Assembly: GCA_016790425.1 (NCBI GenBank) | Contig: JAEUPF010000053.1 | Span: 1-40,965, forward strand | Direction: 5' to 3' | From: Rubrivivax sp. | GTDB lineage: Bacteria; Pseudomonadota; Gammaproteobacteria; Burkholderiales; Burkholderiaceae_C | DNA: 40,965 bases | Part shown: positions 635 through 22,992 of the stretch, piece by piece | How the letters are laid out: each line of letters begins with the position of its first letter | How positions within the stretch are numbered: position 1 is the first letter of the stretch | Translations under genes and position numbers: made by a program | Notes under the pieces: model-generated | Told to the model about the DNA's origin: nothing | The model's database searches: none | What the model saw: only the letters and a program-made list of their open reading frames with translations

Positions 635-2848
635 ATGAATGCCCCCGCGGCTGCCCCGGCCGCCCCCGCGAACACCGCCGCCGCCGCCGCCGGCGCGCAA
701 GCCCGCGCAGCGGCATGGCATCGCGGCTGGCGCGCCCGCTGGCGTCCAGCCTGGCGCCAGGCCGGGCCGCTGCGGCGCGCGCTGCCCTGGGTGCTGCTGC
801 TGGCGCTGCTGGCGGTGGCGCAGACGCTCCTGGTGGCGCTGACGTTGCGCTACGAGACGTGGCGGGCGCATGCCGCGGCCGAAGCGGCTGCGGCCGAGGC
901 GGCCAGTGCCGTGCGGCGCGACCTGCTGCGCTTCACGCAGGCGCTGCAGGTCGTCACGCGCCTCTCGCCTGCCGAGCCCGATTGGCGCGCCGCGGTCGAC
1001 ACGGTGCTGCGCGAGGGCGCGCCGCTACGCCGCATCGAATGGCGCGACGCGGCGGTGGCCATCGTCACCGGGGTCGACGCGCCGCTGGCGCCGCCGCTGT
1101 TCGCGCGCATTGCGCGCGCCGAGCTGTCGGCCGAGCCCGAGCAGGCCTGCCGTGAAGCACAGCGGCTCTCGGCGCCGACCTTCTCGGGCAGCTACTTCGT
1201 CCCTTCGTTCGACGGCACGGGCGAGGAGGTGATCGACCTGTGCCTGCCGGTGTGGCGCGACGGCCGCCAGGCGGCCTACCTCGTGGCCACGCTGGCGCTG
1301 CAGGGGCTTCTGGACGCGGCGGTCGAGCGCTCGCGCGAGCTGCGCCGCTACGAGATGAGCTTCGTCGAGTCCGACGGCGCCCGCCTGGCGCGCGCGGGGG
1401 TGCAGCGCGGCGCCGGTGTCACCGTCGAGGAGCAGGTGCTCGACCTGCCGGGCCACTCGCTGCGCCTGCGCGCCGACAGCGTGGCCGGCCCACCGGGGCT
1501 GATCCCCACGCTGACACTGGCGCTCGTGCTCGGCTTGTCGATCGCCCTCTTCGGCGTCGTGCTGCTGCTCGCGCGCGACGTGCGCCGGCGCGCTGCCGCC
1601 GAGCAGGCACTGGCCGAATCGCTGCGCTTTCGCCAGGCGATGGAGGACTCGCTGTCCACCGGCCTGCGGGCGCGCAACCTGGCCGGCGCCATCACCTACG
1701 TCAACCCGGCCTTCTGCGCGATGGTGGGCGTCGGCGCCGAGGCGCTCTACGCGGTGCGGCCCCCCGCCGCTCCGCCGTACTGGCCGCCGGAACGCGCCGC
1801 CGAGTACACCGAGCGCCAGCGGCGCCGGCTGGCCGGCGGCGCCGCGCAGCGCGAAGGCTTCGAGATGGTCTACATGCGCAGCAACGGCGAGCGCTTTCCG
1901 GTGATGGTCTACGAGGCGCCGCTGCTCGACGCCGAGGGCCGCCACACCGGCTGGATGGGCTCCGTGCTCGACCTCACCGCACAGCGGCGCATCGAAGACC
2001 TCTCGCGCCAGCAGCAGGAGCGGCTGCAGGCCACCGCGCGACTGGCCACGGTGGGCGAGATGGCCTCGCTGCTGAGCCACGAACTGAACCAGCCGCTGGC
2101 GGCGATCGCCAGCTACTCGACGGGGTCGCTGAACCTGCTCGGCGCGACCGGTGCGGCGGCTGCCGCGGCGGCCGGCGCGGCCGCGGCAGCCGGGGCGGCC
2201 GCCGTCGGCCCGGCGGCACCCCGCGCCGAGGGCGAGGAGACCACCGCCCTGCTGCGCCAGGCCCTGGCGCGCATCGCCGAGCAGGCCGAGCGCGCCGGGC
2301 GCGTCATCAAGAGCGTGCACGACTTCGTCCGCCGCCGCGAGCAGCAACGCGAGACGATCGGCGTCGACCTGCTGCTCGAAGCAGTGCTGCCGCTGGTGCG
2401 GCTGCAAGCGCGCAAGGCGGGCGTGCGCGTCGAACTCGACCTGCCGCAGCCGCCCGCCGCCGTGCCGCGCGTCGTCTGCGACCGCACGATGGTCGAACAG
2501 GTGCTGCTGAACTTGGCGCGCAACGGCATCCAGGCGATGGAAGGCGCGCCGGGCGGCACGCCGGCGGCCGAGCGCATGCTGCTTCTGGCCGCCCGCGCGC
2601 TGCCCGATGGGTGGGTGCGGATCGACGTCGGCGACCGCGGCCCGGGCATCGCGCCCGAGGTGGCCGCGCGCCTGTTCACGCCCTTCTTCACCACCCGCGC
2701 CGAGGGCATGGGTCTAGGCCTGAGCCTGTGCCGCACGGTTGTCGAGCAGCATGGCGGCACGCTGGCCTTCGAGCCCGGCCCGGGCGGCCGCGGCACGCGG
2801 TTCCACTTCACGCTGCCGGCGCCGCGCCCGGCCGCTGCCGCGCAATGA
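635..2848 (+). CDS. DctS-like membrane sensor histidine kinase with PAS domain
   Basis: This 737-residue two-component sensor has a Pro/Ala N-terminus and a first membrane segment at about 48-68. A periplasmic sensor region runs to about 285, followed by a second membrane segment at about 290-313. A PAS domain follows (about 330-450, with YVNPAFCAMVGVGAEAL and later GWMGSVLDLT). The phosphoacceptor H-box is EMASLLSHELNQPLAAIAS, with His482. The ATPase domain has an N-box (Asn630), a DRGPGIAP box near 667 and a GMGLGLSLC box. The layout matches DctS/FixL-type kinases. The neighbouring malic enzyme and the FixJ-type regulator just downstream favour C4-dicarboxylate sensing, but the ligand is inferred. 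A roughly 30-residue Ala/Gly insertion sits just after the H-box helix. The ribosome site is weak. Confidence 0.9.
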   Translation: MNAPAAAPAAPANTAAAAAGAQARAAAWHRGWRARWRPAWRQAGPLRRALPWVLLLALLAVAQTLLVALTLRYETWRAHAAAEAAAAEAASAVRRDLLRFTQALQVVTRLSPAEPDWRAAVDTVLREGAPLRRIEWRDAAVAIVTGVDAPLAPPLFARIARAELSAEPEQACREAQRLSAPTFSGSYFVPSFDGTGEEVIDLCLPVWRDGRQAAYLVATLALQGLLDAAVERSRELRRYEMSFVESDGARLARAGVQRGAGVTVEEQVLDLPGHSLRLRADSVAGPPGLIPTLTLALVLGLSIALFGVVLLLARDVRRRAAAEQALAESLRFRQAMEDSLSTGLRARNLAGAITYVNPAFCAMVGVGAEALYAVRPPAAPPYWPPERAAEYTERQRRRLAGGAAQREGFEMVYMRSNGERFPVMVYEAPLLDAEGRHTGWMGSVLDLTAQRRIEDLSRQQQERLQATARLATVGEMASLLSHELNQPLAAIASYSTGSLNLLGATGAAAAAAAGAAAAAGAAAVGPAAPRAEGEETTALLRQALARIAEQAERAGRVIKSVHDFVRRREQQRETIGVDLLLEAVLPLVRLQARKAGVRVELDLPQPPAAVPRVVCDRTMVEQVLLNLARNGIQAMEGAPGGTPAAERMLLLAARALPDGWVRIDVGDRGPGIAPEVAARLFTPFFTTRAEGMGLGLSLCRTVVEQHGGTLAFEPGPGGRGTRFHFTLPAPRPAAAAQ

Positions 2849-19302: not shown

Positions 19303-20958
19303 TCACGCCGGCGCGGCCACCTGGAACGAGCCGGCGCTCGCCATCGGCCAATAGAGCCTGAACACCGCGTGCGGCCACTCGCCGCGGCCCGCGGCGGCGG
19401 CGAGCAGCGAGCCGGGCTGCACGAACGTGAGCTGGTTCGCCAGCAGCCGCACCTCGCGGTCGGCCATGCGGCGCACGATGTGGCTGGCGGTGATCTCGCG
19501 CGGATGCATGAGGCCGGCGGCCTGCACCAGTTCCTTCAGCGCCTCGAGCGTGCCTTCGTGGAAGCGATACACGCGCTCGGCCTTCGTCGGCACCACCAGC
19601 GCGCGCTGGCGCAGCGGATCCTGCGTCGTCACCCCCGTGGGGCAGCTGCCGGTGTGGCAGCTCTGGGCCTGGATGCAGCCGAGCGAGAACATGAAGCCGC
19701 GCGCCGAATTGCACCAGTCGGCGCCCAGCGCCATGGCGCGCGCGATGTCGAATGCGCTCACCACCTTGCCGGCGCAGCCGATGCGGATGCGCTCGCGCAG
19801 CCCGAGCCCGACCAGCGTGTTGTGCACGAGCAGCAGCCCTTCCTGCAAGGGCGCGCCGACATGGTCGGTGAATTCGAGCGGTGCTGCGCCGGTGCCGCCT
19901 TCGGCGCCGTCGACGACGATGAAGTCGGGCAGCAGGCCCGATTCGAGCATCGCCTTGCAGATGCCGAACCACTCCCACGGGTGGCCGATGCACAGCTTGA
20001 AGCCCACCGGCTTGCCGCCCGAGAGACCGCGCAGCCGCTCGATGAACTGCATCATCTCCACCGGCGTCGCGAAGGCCGAGTGGCGTGCCGGGCTGATGCA
20101 GTCCTCGCCCGCGGCCACGCCGCGCGCGGCGGCGATCTCCGCCGTCACCTTCGAGCCGGGCAGCACGCCGCCGTGGCCCGGCTTGGCACCCTGGCTCAGC
20201 TTCAGCTCGATCATCTTCACCTGCGGCGAGGTGGCGTTGTCGACGAAGCGGTTCTCGCTGAAGCGGCCGTCGGCGCTGCGGCAGCCGAAGTAGCCGCTGC
20301 CGATCTCCCACACGAGGTCGCCGCCGTGCACGCGGTGGTGCTCGCTGATCGAGCCTTCGCCGGTGTCGTGCGCGAAGCCGCCCTTCTTCGCGCCGGCGTT
20401 CAAGGCCATGATGGCGTTGGCCGACAGCGCGCCGAAGCTCATCGCCGAGATGTTGAAGACGCTGGCGCTGTACGGCTGCGTGCACGAGGTGCCGCCGCGG
20501 CCGATCTCGACGCGGAAGTCGTGCGAGGCGAGCTGCGTCGGCGCGATGCTGTGGTTGATCCACTCGAAGCCGGCGGCGTGCACGTCGAGCTGGGTGCCGA
20601 ACGGCCGCTTGTCGGGGTCGCCCTTGGCGCGCTGGTAGACCAGGCTGCGCTGCTGGCGCGAGAACGGCGCCGCTTCGTTGTCGCTCTCGATGAAGTACTG
20701 CCGCATCTCGGGCCGGATGAACTCCAGCAGGAAGCGCAGGTGCCCGATCACCGGGTAGTTGCGCAGCACCGAGTGGCGGCGCTGCCGCGTGTCGCGCCAG
20801 CCCAGGCCCACCAGGGCCAGGCCGGCCAGCGCCACGCCACCGCCCATGTCGAACGCCACCCAGGTGAAGGTGGCCAGCAGCAGCGCCACGGCCGACAGCA
20901 GCCACGCGAAGTAGCGCACCGGGAAATGGCGGTCGATGCGTTGCAGCCACTCGTGCAT
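19303..20958 (-). CDS. Membrane-anchored FMN-binding glutamate-synthase-like protein
   Basis: A 551-residue protein with two N-terminal membrane helices (about 15-35 and 37-56), then the FMN-binding synthase domain of GltB. No amidotransferase domain is present. Visible motifs are FEWINHSI, FNISAMSFGALSANAIMALNAG, GEGSISEHH, LSQGAKPGHGGVLPG, GAEGGTGAAPLEF and the [3Fe-4S] motif with Cys428, Cys434 and Cys439. Stand-alone synthase-domain proteins of this kind are common in Proteobacteria and their reaction is not settled. They lack the ammonia-generating half and a GltD partner. A strong AGGAGGAG precedes the ATG at 20958. It is divergent from the SAM-riboswitch/metX leader. Confidence 0.9.
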   Translation of the reverse strand: MHEWLQRIDRHFPVRYFAWLLSAVALLLATFTWVAFDMGGGVALAGLALVGLGWRDTRQRRHSVLRNYPVIGHLRFLLEFIRPEMRQYFIESDNEAAPFSRQQRSLVYQRAKGDPDKRPFGTQLDVHAAGFEWINHSIAPTQLASHDFRVEIGRGGTSCTQPYSASVFNISAMSFGALSANAIMALNAGAKKGGFAHDTGEGSISEHHRVHGGDLVWEIGSGYFGCRSADGRFSENRFVDNATSPQVKMIELKLSQGAKPGHGGVLPGSKVTAEIAAARGVAAGEDCISPARHSAFATPVEMMQFIERLRGLSGGKPVGFKLCIGHPWEWFGICKAMLESGLLPDFIVVDGAEGGTGAAPLEFTDHVGAPLQEGLLLVHNTLVGLGLRERIRIGCAGKVVSAFDIARAMALGADWCNSARGFMFSLGCIQAQSCHTGSCPTGVTTQDPLRQRALVVPTKAERVYRFHEGTLEALKELVQAAGLMHPREITASHIVRRMADREVRLLANQLTFVQPGSLLAAAAGRGEWPHAVFRLYWPMASAGSFQVAAPA

Positions 20959-21054: not shown

Positions 21055-21060
21055 TATACT
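21055..21060 (+). promoter_or_regulatory. Candidate -10 box of the metX leader
   Basis: TATACT at 21055-21060 lies about ten bases before the 5' arm of the riboswitch stem. A transcript started there would begin only a few bases ahead of the aptamer. No good -35 is visible upstream. Confidence 0.55.
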
Positions 21061-21067
21061 TTGCCGC

Positions 21068-21122
21068 ACAGCGCCGATTTGCTCCGGCTTGCGGGCGCTT
21101 TATCAAATGCCGCTAAACAGGA
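21068..21122 (+). promoter_or_regulatory. SAM-II (SAM-alpha) riboswitch aptamer upstream of metX
   Basis: The element has the architecture I recall for SAM-II. The stem arms AGCGCC (21070-21075) and GGCGCT (21094-21099) are exactly complementary. The loop begins GATTT and ends CTTGCG. The stem is followed by TTATCAAATG and then CGCTAAACAGG, matching the family's conserved GAUUU ... UUGC ... GCGCU-UAU-AAAUG--GCUAAA--GG core. The 3' segment can pair back into the loop as a pseudoknot (CGGC with GCCG). It sits directly upstream of metX, the classic SAM-II target, and an intrinsic terminator follows. The assignment is by pattern memory, not by covariance search. Confidence 0.85.
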
Positions 21123-21128
21123 CCCCCG

Positions 21129-21165
21129 ACCCGGGGCCGTCTCGTGTGGCGGCACCGGGTTTTTT
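21129..21165 (+). terminator. Intrinsic terminator in the metX leader (riboswitch expression platform)
   Basis: ACCCGG (21129-21134) pairs with CCGGGT (21155-21160), extended by an inner GCCG/CGGC pairing. A run of six T residues (21160-21165) follows. It lies seven bases past the aptamer and 50 bases before the metX ATG, so SAM binding could control termination. A competing pairing of CCCC (about 21123-21126) with GGGG (21133-21136) could act as the antiterminator. Confidence 0.8.
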
Positions 21166-21215
21166 CATTCACGGCTCGCTCACCCACGGCGCCCAAGGAC
21201 GCCTCTTCGCGCGCG

Positions 21216-22415
21216 ATGGCTTCGACGCTCGGCCTGGTCACCCCGCAGCAGATGCACTTCGGCGAAGCGCTGCCGCTGGCCAGCGGCGCGGCGCTGGCCG
21301 ACTACCGGCTCGTCTACGAAACCTACGGCACGCTCAACGAGGCGCGCAGCAACGCCGTGCTGGTGTGCCACGCGCTCAACGCCGGCGCCCATGTCGCGGG
21401 GCTCGACGCCAACGGCCAGCCGGGCTGGTGGGACAACCTCGTCGGGCCGGGCAAGCCGCTGGACACGCGCCGCTTCTTCGTCATCGGCGTCAACAACCCC
21501 GGCTCGTGCTTCGGCTCGACCGGGCCGATGCACAAGAACCCCGCCAGCGGCCGCGCCTGGGGTGCCGACTTCCCCGTCGTGACGGTGGAAGACTGGGTCG
21601 ATGCGCAGGCGCGGCTGGTCGAGCGCCTGGGCATCGCGCGGCTGGCCGCGGTGATCGGCGGCAGCCTGGGCGGCATGCAGGCGCTGGCATGGACGCTGCG
21701 CCATCCCGCTCGCGTGGCGCACTGCATCGCGGTGGCGACGGCGCCGAGCCTGTCGGCGCAGAACATCGCCTTCAACGAGGTGGCGCGGCGCGCCATCGTC
21801 ACCGACCCCGACTTCCACGGCGGCCACTTCTACGAGCACGGCGTGGTGCCGCGGCGCGGCCTGCGCGTGGCACGCATGATCGGCCACATCACCTACCTCA
21901 GCGACGACGCGATGGAGGCCAAGTTCGGCCGCCGCACCGCCAACGGGCAGCGCCACGGCGCTTCTGCCGCGGCCAGCGCCGAGGCGGGCGCCGGCGCCGC
22001 GACGATGGCCGACTTCGCCTATACGACGCAGGACATCGAGTTCCAGATCGAGAGCTACCTGCGCCACCAGGGCGACAAGTTCAGCGAGTATTTCGACGCC
22101 AACACGTACCTCCTGATCACGCGCGCCCTCGACTACTTCGACCCGGCGCGCGAGCACGGCGGCGACCTGAAGGCGGCGTTCGCGCCGGCGCGCGGCAAGC
22201 GCTTCCTGCTCGTCAGCTTCACCACCGACTGGCGCTTCGCGCCGGCGCGCAGCCGCGAGATCGTCAAGGCCCTCGTCGACAACGACGCCGCGGTGAGCTA
22301 CGCCGAGATCGACGCGCCGCACGGCCACGACGCCTTCCTGCTCGACGATGCGCGCTACCACGGCGTGCTGCGCGCCTACTTCCATCGCATCGCCGCCGAG
22401 GTGGAACGTGTCTGA
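21216..22415 (+). CDS. metX: Homoserine O-acyltransferase MetX
   Basis: MetX acylates homoserine from acetyl- or succinyl-CoA, the first committed step to methionine. This alpha/beta hydrolase has [20 protein letters not shown] and a [12 protein letters not shown] oxyanion region. The nucleophile elbow is [12 protein letters not shown], and the acid and His are near the C-terminus (APHGHDAFL). It is 399 residues long, slightly over the usual 370-380. An Ala/Gly-rich insert ([18 protein letters not shown]) lies before the [17 protein letters not shown] lid segment. Whether it uses acetyl- or succinyl-CoA cannot be told by eye. The ATG at 21216 lacks an obvious ribosome site but gives the typical [14 protein letters not shown] start. 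It overlaps metW by eight bases. Confidence 0.96.
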
Positions 22416-22992
22416 GCGGCGCGACCTGGAGATCATCGCCAGCCTCGTGCCCGCGGGCAGCCGCGTGCTCGACCTGGGCTGCGGCAACGGCGAGCTGCTG
22501 GCGCATCTGCAGCGCACCCGGCGGTGCAGCGGCTACGGCATCGAGCTGGCCGACGCCAACGTGCACGCGGCGCTGGAGCACGGCATCGACGTGATCCAGC
22601 TCAACCTCGAAGAGGGCCTGGCGCTCTTCGACGACCGCAGCTTCGACGTCGTGCTGCAGCTGGACACCCTGCAGCACCTGCGCAACACCGAGCACATGCT
22701 GCGCGAGACGGCGCGCGTGGGCCGCATCGGCATCGTCAGCTTTCCCAACTTCGCGCACTGGCCCAACCGCGTGCGCGTGCTCGGCGGCCGCATGCCGGTG
22801 ACGAAGACGCTGCCCTACCAGTGGTACGACACGCCGAACATCCGGGTGGGCACCTTCGCCGACTTCGAGCTGCTGGCGCGCCGCACCGGGCTTTCGGTGA
22901 GCGACAGCTTCGGCCTGCACGACGGCCGCATCGTGCGCCGCTGGCCGAACCTGCTGGCCAGCGTGGCCGTGTTCAGGTTCGAGCAGCGCTGA
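22408..22992 (+). CDS. metW: Methionine biosynthesis protein MetW
   Basis: A 194-residue methyltransferase-fold protein that accompanies MetX in Proteobacteria; it is thought to support or regulate the MetX step. It has the SAM-type motif [17 protein letters not shown] near residues 20-35, then the MetW signatures [41 protein letters not shown] and [13 protein letters not shown]. The GTG start at 22408 lies within the last codons of metX, so the two are almost certainly translationally coupled and both under the upstream riboswitch. Confidence 0.96.

Follow-up and report, generated by a model that had tools for sequence, protein, structure and literature searches.

A probable SAM-II riboswitch with a transcription terminator in the metX-metW leader of a Rubrivivax relative

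Introduction

The leader of the metX and metW genes analysed here is very probably a SAM-II riboswitch that turns these genes off by transcription termination. The window, meaning the whole stretch of DNA that was analysed, comprises 40,965 nucleotides of a Rubrivivax sp. contig (JAEUPF010000053.1), and its element is an ordinary new member of the SAM-II class with a terminator platform. The aptamer, the -10 box, the terminator, the gene context and the fit of the antiterminator to its own partner have all been computed. Riboswitches of this class bind SAM with micromolar affinity and reject SAH, and the GATTT motif of loop L1 takes part in the ligand site.

The leader element in the window

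An initial annotation, made from the sequence alone, had described the leader as a -10 box, the two P1 arms, GATTT, TTGC, AAATG, GCTAAA, AGG and a terminator. All of these parts can be located (Table 1), among them the conserved SAM-II core GATTT, TTGC, AAAT, GCTAAA and AGG, and the intrinsic terminator taken as the expression platform is indeed present as two arms with a U-tract. The SAM-II identity is borne out by the corresponding Rfam covariance model (SAM_alpha, RF00521), which matches the leader with 35.0 bits (E 2e-6, 351 nt scanned) in a complete alignment running end to end over model positions 1-79. In a scan of the whole genome (4.3 Mb), the locus is the sole match at E <= 0.001 (E 5.7e-6). 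The curated gathering score of RF00521 is 36 bits, and a standard Rfam run at this cut-off leaves the leader unlisted, one bit under it. The element shares with RF00521 the P1 stem, the GATTT loop and the predicted pseudoknot made of TTGC/GCTAA and CC/GG, as well as a -10 box a few nucleotides before P1, a downstream methionine gene and a terminator, the latter being present in many members (PMC1273637). It differs from the family in its P1 loop, which is shorter and lacks three model positions, in its sub-cut-off score and in the metX-metW genes of its lineage.

Promoters directly before P1 were noted for SAM-II by Corbino et al. 2005 (PMC1273637), and in the window the -10 box is separated from P1 by 9 nt, with the transcription start estimated at 21067-21069, adjoining P1. 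A simple promoter and terminator scan of the window flagged neither the -10 box nor the terminator, the latter being missed because the scan allows loops of 3-8 nt only. The folding of the leader compared to shuffles is modest (z -2.0, with 7/200 shuffles as good).

Table 1. Features of the metX-metW leader and its genes (positions in the window), with the Burkholderia-type leaders in the last line (positions in the respective loci)
Feature	Position	Strand	Basis or remark
-10 box TATACT	21055..21060	+	sequence; without a good -35
Match to Rfam SAM_alpha (SAM-II)	21061..21137	+	covariance model, 35.0 bits
P1 5' strand AGCGCC	21070..21075	+	pairs with 21094-21099
GATTT, L1 of SAM-II	21076..21080	+	present in 107/107 A1 rows
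P2 5' strand: CC 21084-21085 (P2b), TTGC 21089-21092 (P2a)	21084..21092	+	alignment A1
P1 3' strand GGCGCT	21094..21099	+	alignment A1, covariation
L3 A-rich strand AAATG	21105..21109	+	alignment A1
Predicted antiterminator 5' strand (outer 21108-21115, inner 21120-21128)	21108..21128	+	minimum-free-energy fold
P2 3' strand GCTAAACAGG: P2 pairing and predicted share of antiterminator 5' strand	21112..21121	+	A1; own against permuted partners
GCTAAA 21112-21117; AGG 21119-21121	within P2 3' strand	+	sequence
Terminator 5' arm	21128..21141	+	fold with P2 nucleotides held unpaired
Predicted antiterminator 3' strand: 21132-21142 takes terminator 5' arm, 21147-21154 takes loop and 3' arm	21132..21154	+	predicted fold
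Terminator 3' arm	21148..21161	+	same constrained fold; own against permuted arms
U-tract	21160..21165	+	sequence
metX (homoserine O-acyltransferase)	21216..22415	+	ATG start at 21216; NF047916, 614.6 bits, cut-off 560
metW, GTG start inferred, overlaps metX end	22408..22992	+	TIGR02081, 237.6 bits, cut-off 189.5
Burkholderia-type leaders L253, L254, L256, L258, L259, L261-L266, L268-L271, L274, L275, L278; L276	about 1290-1500; L276 about 1155-1500		with L3 hairpin

The gene context agrees with the assignment, as metX and metW are methionine/SAM genes of the kind found downstream of SAM-II; both had been named from the sequence, and both exceed the cut-offs of their profiles. The MetX protein also scores above the cut-off of NF001209, which is named an O-acetyltransferase (541.5 vs 331), and stays under that of TIGR01392 (440.2 vs 500). 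Being best scored by the O-succinyltransferase model NF047916, it may produce O-succinylhomoserine. The betaproteobacterial host of the initial annotation is confirmed as a member of the Burkholderiales near Rubrivivax, as judged by MetX, which shares up to 81% identity with its nearest counterparts, the MetX proteins of Rubrivivax and of further Burkholderiales. On the opposite strand, the divergent neighbour (19303-20958) encodes a 551-aa protein that covers only part of the model for the large subunit of glutamate synthase and scores 130.2 bits against its cut-off of 1047. Elsewhere in the genome, a SAH riboswitch is found at G000:C112:6126-6219 (L280, 58 bits).

Relatives and covariation

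At E <= 0.001, RF00521 finds matches in at least 169 of 299 sampled genomes of the family to which the window belongs, and in at least 69 of 299 over the cut-off; searches over 40 genomes used stricter filters, which makes such counts lower bounds. The leader of the window and 30 plus 80 more, chosen by RF00521 match and drawn mostly from the top of the match list, gave 111 family leaders. The pattern GATTT..TTGC..GCTAAA is present in 111/111 of these, all preselected by their RF00521 match. Dereplication removes relatedness among leaders only in part.

Alignment A1 contains the 107 distinct aptamers of the family. GATTT, TTGC and GCTAAA are each present in 107/107 rows, while AGG is variable among relatives. 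P1 is paired in 98.8% of cells and shows two-sided changes at 3/6 pairs, so that the stem is backed by covariation. In P2a, TTGC/GCTAA is invariant, including a U-U position in 107/107 rows, which makes covariation impossible there. The CC/GG pairing of P2b is found in 79.9% of cells, with a two-sided change at one pair and GG shifted in several rows. In addition, a -10-like hexamer (at least 4/6) ends 5-16 nt before P1 in all 111 family leaders (24.8 expected from shuffles).

A lineage model, R1, was built from the 107 aptamers of A1 and searched against 80 MetX loci of named relatives, where 72 were matched upstream of metX, 49 of them with E below 1e-12. The eight loci at which R1 gave no match are L203, L206, L217, L255, L257, L260, L267 and L279. 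L203 and L211 come from metagenome bins labelled Brevundimonas and Bordetella parapertussis, respectively, and have MetX proteins 78% and 75% identical to that of the window, which suggests from sequence likeness that the bins are mislabelled or mixed. The idea of a decayed or chance SAM-II-like sequence devoid of function would accommodate the score one bit short of the cut-off and the modest fold z-score; set against a core common to 107 distinct relatives, the covariation of P1 and the position of the aptamer upstream of metX in most relatives, it is extremely improbable.

Distribution of the lineage model

R1 also recovers 30/30 of the RF00521 loci from other classes of the phylum and, therefore, the family aptamers and those SAM-II loci form one family. 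This set of other classes (L112-L141) belongs to the same phylum, presumably to the alphaproteobacteria, and one of its loci, L119, failed the pattern search. A class/order set (L142-L199) includes one more genome of the window's family (L172). In the GTDB taxonomy, betaproteobacteria are placed inside Gammaproteobacteria. R1 matched at least 175 of 369 genomes in the class sample and at least 169 of 250 in the order sample; among 369 class genomes drawn likewise, RF00521 matched at least 118 at E <= 0.001 and at least 30 over the cut-off. A standard Rfam run thus misses most SAM-II-like leaders of the class (at least 30 vs at least 175 of 369). In the phylum sample, RF00521 matched at least 58 of 299 genomes, at least 49 over the cut-off, with the best scores in other classes. 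When 40 of the 58 class/order loci were scanned with Rfam, SAM_alpha was over the cut-off in 18 (4/20 and 14/20).

Clustering of the downstream frames indicates that most R1 loci examined precede metX or metZ/metY; the counts are rough, since the clustering relied on the longest frame, which in GC-rich DNA is the wrong one in a number of members, including the representative of the largest cluster. A profile search of four cluster representatives returned MetK (L191), MetF (L159), MetH (L175) and O-succinylhomoserine sulfhydrylase (L143). This gene context independently supports the R1 matches. Matches before metK (L162, L166, L169, L187, L191), metH (L175, L189) and metF (L159) were also observed, with gene labels assigned by profile for L191, L175 and L159 and by clustering for L162, L166, L169, L187 and L189. 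The R1 match shares its 3 kb with a SAH riboswitch (RF01057) in L162 and L187. Two genomes, G824 and G932, have five and six R1 matches, and some members of the class perhaps possess a larger SAM-II regulon.

The proposed switch

Folded without pseudoknots, the leader of the window (21068-21166) forms P1 and one long hairpin at -41.1 kcal/mol, a fold that also came out of the comparison with shuffles. This hairpin, the predicted antiterminator, pairs 21108-21115 with 21147-21154 and 21120-21128 with 21132-21142. When the P2 nucleotides are held unpaired, the fold consists of P1 and the terminator at -37.8 kcal/mol, and the gap of about 3 kcal/mol could be within what micromolar ligand binding can pay. 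A CCCC/GGGG pairing had been suggested as the antiterminator at the outset. It does occur in the best fold (21124-21127 with 21133-21136), but as the inner piece of the longer antiterminator, which also takes GG and GCUA of the P2 strand; CCCC/GGGG alone was therefore rejected. A version with CCCC moved one base upstream (21123-21126) is energetically less favourable (-36.7 vs -41.1 kcal/mol).

On this scheme, transcription of the leader would start next to P1. With SAM scarce, the segment 21108-21128, which holds GCUA and GG of the pseudoknot 3' strand and their neighbours, would be free to pair with 21132-21154, i.e., with the terminator 5' arm, the loop and part of the 3' arm, and the resulting antiterminator would let the polymerase read into metX. 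With SAM plentiful, the ligand would be bound in P2, the helix formed by GCUAA with UUGC and by GG with CC; the P2 strand would then be unavailable, the terminator (21128-21161) would form and transcription would stop. For the window leader we infer SAM as the ligand, this direction of the switch and its function in the cell.

Terminators and the predicted antiterminator across relatives

Terminators are frequent among the relatives. A hairpin with a U-tract within 150 nt was found in 95/111 family leaders compared to 37/333 shuffles and, with an energy under -12 kcal/mol, in 94/111 compared to 19/333. The search found none in 16/111 family leaders and none in 6/46 compact leaders of a separate set. 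A stricter rule gave 92/111 in the family, 55/58 in the class/order set and 23/29 in the other classes.

The pairing partners were then compared within and between leaders. Each tail (GCTAAA plus up to 16 nt) was paired with the terminator of its own leader and with terminators taken from other leaders. Removed beforehand were leaders more than 80% alike, leaders lacking a terminator of -10 kcal/mol or lower, and L142 and L147, which are second copies of genomes in the set. The terminator arms themselves strongly prefer each other to permuted arms (z -14.4, 62 family leaders). In the same 62 leaders, the tail pairs with its own terminator 5' arm at -12.83 kcal/mol compared to -11.44 with permuted arms (z -4.8, 1/5000), and the preference is also found in the class/order set (43 leaders, z -2.4, 45/5000) and in the other classes (nine leaders, z -2.8, 11/5000). 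For the controls, in which the tail was set against the 3' arm and the P1 loop or the P1 3' strand against the 5' arm, z remains between -1.6 and 1.0 in the three sets. The tail preference had already been seen in an earlier test that located terminators more crudely (z -3.9, 0/2000).

The separate set was derived from the 80 MetX loci, of which 46 had compact aptamers by pattern, 40 of these a terminator, and 17 were retained, all of them under 80% alike, both among themselves and compared with the first set. Here, the tail with the 5' arm gave z -2.4 (63/5000), and the outer helix, defined as the 12 nt ending in GCTAAA paired with the terminator loop and 3' arm, gave z -3.9 (0/5000), with controls at 0.5 and 1.2. 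In the family, the outer helix likewise gave z -3.9 (0/5000); it is unsupported beyond it (z 0.8 in the class/order set, 1.3 in the other classes). The same 12 nt with the terminator 5' arm yielded z 0.2, -1.8 and -0.8 in the family, class/order and other classes, respectively. The complement of GCTAAAG (CTTTAGC or CTTTGGC) occurs within 90 nt in 18/56 class/order leaders (0.5 expected), in 8/111 family leaders (1.4 expected) and in 0/29 of the other classes (0.15 expected). The sharing of the pseudoknot 3' strand (GCUAAAnAGG) by the putative antiterminator is backed by own-partner complementarity in the three sets and in the separate set.

Whole-length minimum-free-energy folding was rejected as proof of the switch, as it works for the window but only for 18/92 family leaders; switching as predicted was found in 16/53 class/order leaders and 7/23 of the other classes, and in 14%, 18% and 6% of permuted pieces, respectively. 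Since few relatives switch in this way, equilibrium energies fail to show the switch in most of them and a kinetic route is assumed. Ahead of synthesis of the 3' arm, the tail captures 6.48 nt of the 5' arm in the family (6.02 permuted) and 7.58 in the class/order set (7.01 permuted), a slight gain over permuted partners, and it captures less than permuted in the other classes (6.44 vs 7.00).

These data also bear on the proposal that SAM-II acts mainly on translation here, with the hairpin terminating constitutively, a model put forward for Sinorhizobium metA. In the textbook account of SAM-II, a ribosome site is occluded within P2 (PMC10907184), no response to SAM was predicted for the terminator downstream of the SAM-II of S. 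meliloti metA (PMC9373788), and the family leaders that gave no terminator would fit as well. In the window, however, 94 nt including the terminator separate AGG from the metX start, terminators are common in relatives, and the aptamer tail matches the terminator 5' arm of its own leader, so that a mainly translational role is very unlikely. Control by termination has a precedent in the SAM-II of S. meliloti metZ, where the aptamer is likewise followed by a terminator and a SAM off-switch is predicted (PMC9373788), although that case is alphaproteobacterial and concerns metZ instead of metXW.

Relation to the metXZ element

The initial annotation had regarded the occurrence of SAM-II with a terminator in this lineage as notable, a view that does not hold, since SAM-II with terminators has been in print for alpha- and betaproteobacteria since Barrick and Breaker 2007 (PMC2258182) and the leader type was described in 2014. 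In that year, Leyn et al. (PMC4239095) proposed a new metXZ element upstream of betaproteobacterial metXW and metZ, with a pseudoknot and downstream terminators, in 35 genomes including 8/8 Burkholderia and 10/11 Comamonadaceae. The window leader is almost certainly this element: it shares the metXW/metZ leader position in betaproteobacteria, the pseudoknot pairing of regions 1-4 and 2-6, as mapped from the text of that paper, and the terminator that follows. What differs is that metXZ was proposed as novel and without a ligand, and that the antiterminator suggested there (regions 3 and 4) is unsupported here. In the literature searched, largely at title and abstract level, metXZ and riboswitches were mentioned together only by Leyn et al., and we found no work joining metXZ to SAM-II and none describing the shared-strand antiterminator or the L3 hairpin.

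It could be argued that metXZ is a separate RNA with another ligand, which merely looks like SAM-II and forms its antiterminator from the GC-rich P1-loop and P1 3' regions. The genes, the lineage, the topology of the pseudoknot and the downstream terminators are as in the 2014 description, whose authors ran Rfam profiles and reported SAM_alpha solely from Rhizobiales and Rhodobacterales (PMC4239095). That negative result fits the Rfam cut-off, given the few class genomes over it compared to those found by R1; moreover, the SAM-II model aligns end to end, and R1 finds all 30 other-class loci. The P1-loop or P1 3'-strand antiterminator was rejected, being without own-partner fit in the family (z 0.5 for the P1 loop and 0.0 for the P1 3' region with the terminator 5' arm); in the class/order set, the P1 3' region gave z -1.6 (326/5000). 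A distinct metXZ RNA is accordingly very unlikely, and SAM-II membership is the preferred reading.

A hairpin-bearing variant in the Burkholderia group

By match length and sequence, the 72 R1-matched MetX loci comprise 47 compact aptamers, two with an insertion in the P1 loop and 23 in which an additional hairpin separates the P1 3' strand from the A-rich strand of L3. The P1-loop insertions, of about 30-35 nt, lie before the CC of P2b (L210, L219, about 1350-1440). Nineteen of the 23 hairpin loci belong to Burkholderia, Paraburkholderia, Caballeronia, Trinickia, Pandoraea and Cupriavidus (Table 1). The other four (L242, L247, L248, L272, about 1325-1500) are metX leaders of other Burkholderiales with a short extra L3 hairpin and, by eye, a terminator-like hairpin with a U-run further down in 4/4.

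Alignment A2 contains 18 of the 19 Burkholderia-type leaders, L276 being left out. At its base, the inserted stem shows pairing in 96.7% of cells, and 3/5 of these base pairs carry two-sided changes. The paired fraction is 93.7% for P1 and 100% for the P2 pairs as drawn, among which there is one G-C to G-U change. At cut-off, Rfam finds nothing in 20/20 scanned hairpin loci (of 23), and in L270, scanned at a lax threshold, SAM_alpha reaches 13.6 bits. An SAM-II variant with enlarged loops, as judged by its name, is known as SAM-II long loops (RF01726; Weinberg et al. 2010, PMC2864571) and represents a precedent for the Burkholderia-group variant; it differs in being listed from Bacteroidetes and marine samples (PMC2864571). 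RF01726 had no match in the 20 hairpin loci scanned, nor in L270 at the lax threshold, and it was absent from the window scans, whether at cut-off or with SAM_alpha listed below it.

Among the 19 Burkholderia-type leaders, a clear hairpin with a U-tract was seen by eye only in L276. In most of these leaders, TTTAGCCGC could pair with the aptamer segment GCGGCTAAA (93.2% of cells paired) and overlaps CCGCC, a complement of the GGCGG directly ahead of the metX start (92.9% paired). Covariation was sought in both pairings and found in neither; because neither covaries, the putative ribosome-site switch of this variant is a reading of conserved complementarity only.

Significance

Collectively, the orphan metXZ element and the window leader probably belong to one large beta/gamma branch of SAM-II, which lies mostly below the Rfam cut-off, is also found before metZ, metK, metH and metF, and couples the P2 3' strand to interchangeable outputs, most of the observed lineages having a terminator, and a Burkholderia-group subclass with a variable L3 hairpin having a putative ribosome-site switch. 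New here are the probable identity of metXZ with SAM-II, the proposed shared-strand antiterminator and the hairpin-bearing variant, the variant being the more novel part. An RNA element proposed in 2014 without a ligand is thereby given a probable one, SAM, and a concrete switching scheme is offered for SAM-II terminators. The Burkholderia-type aptamer would, in turn, serve to test where the compact SAM-II fold can accommodate an insertion.
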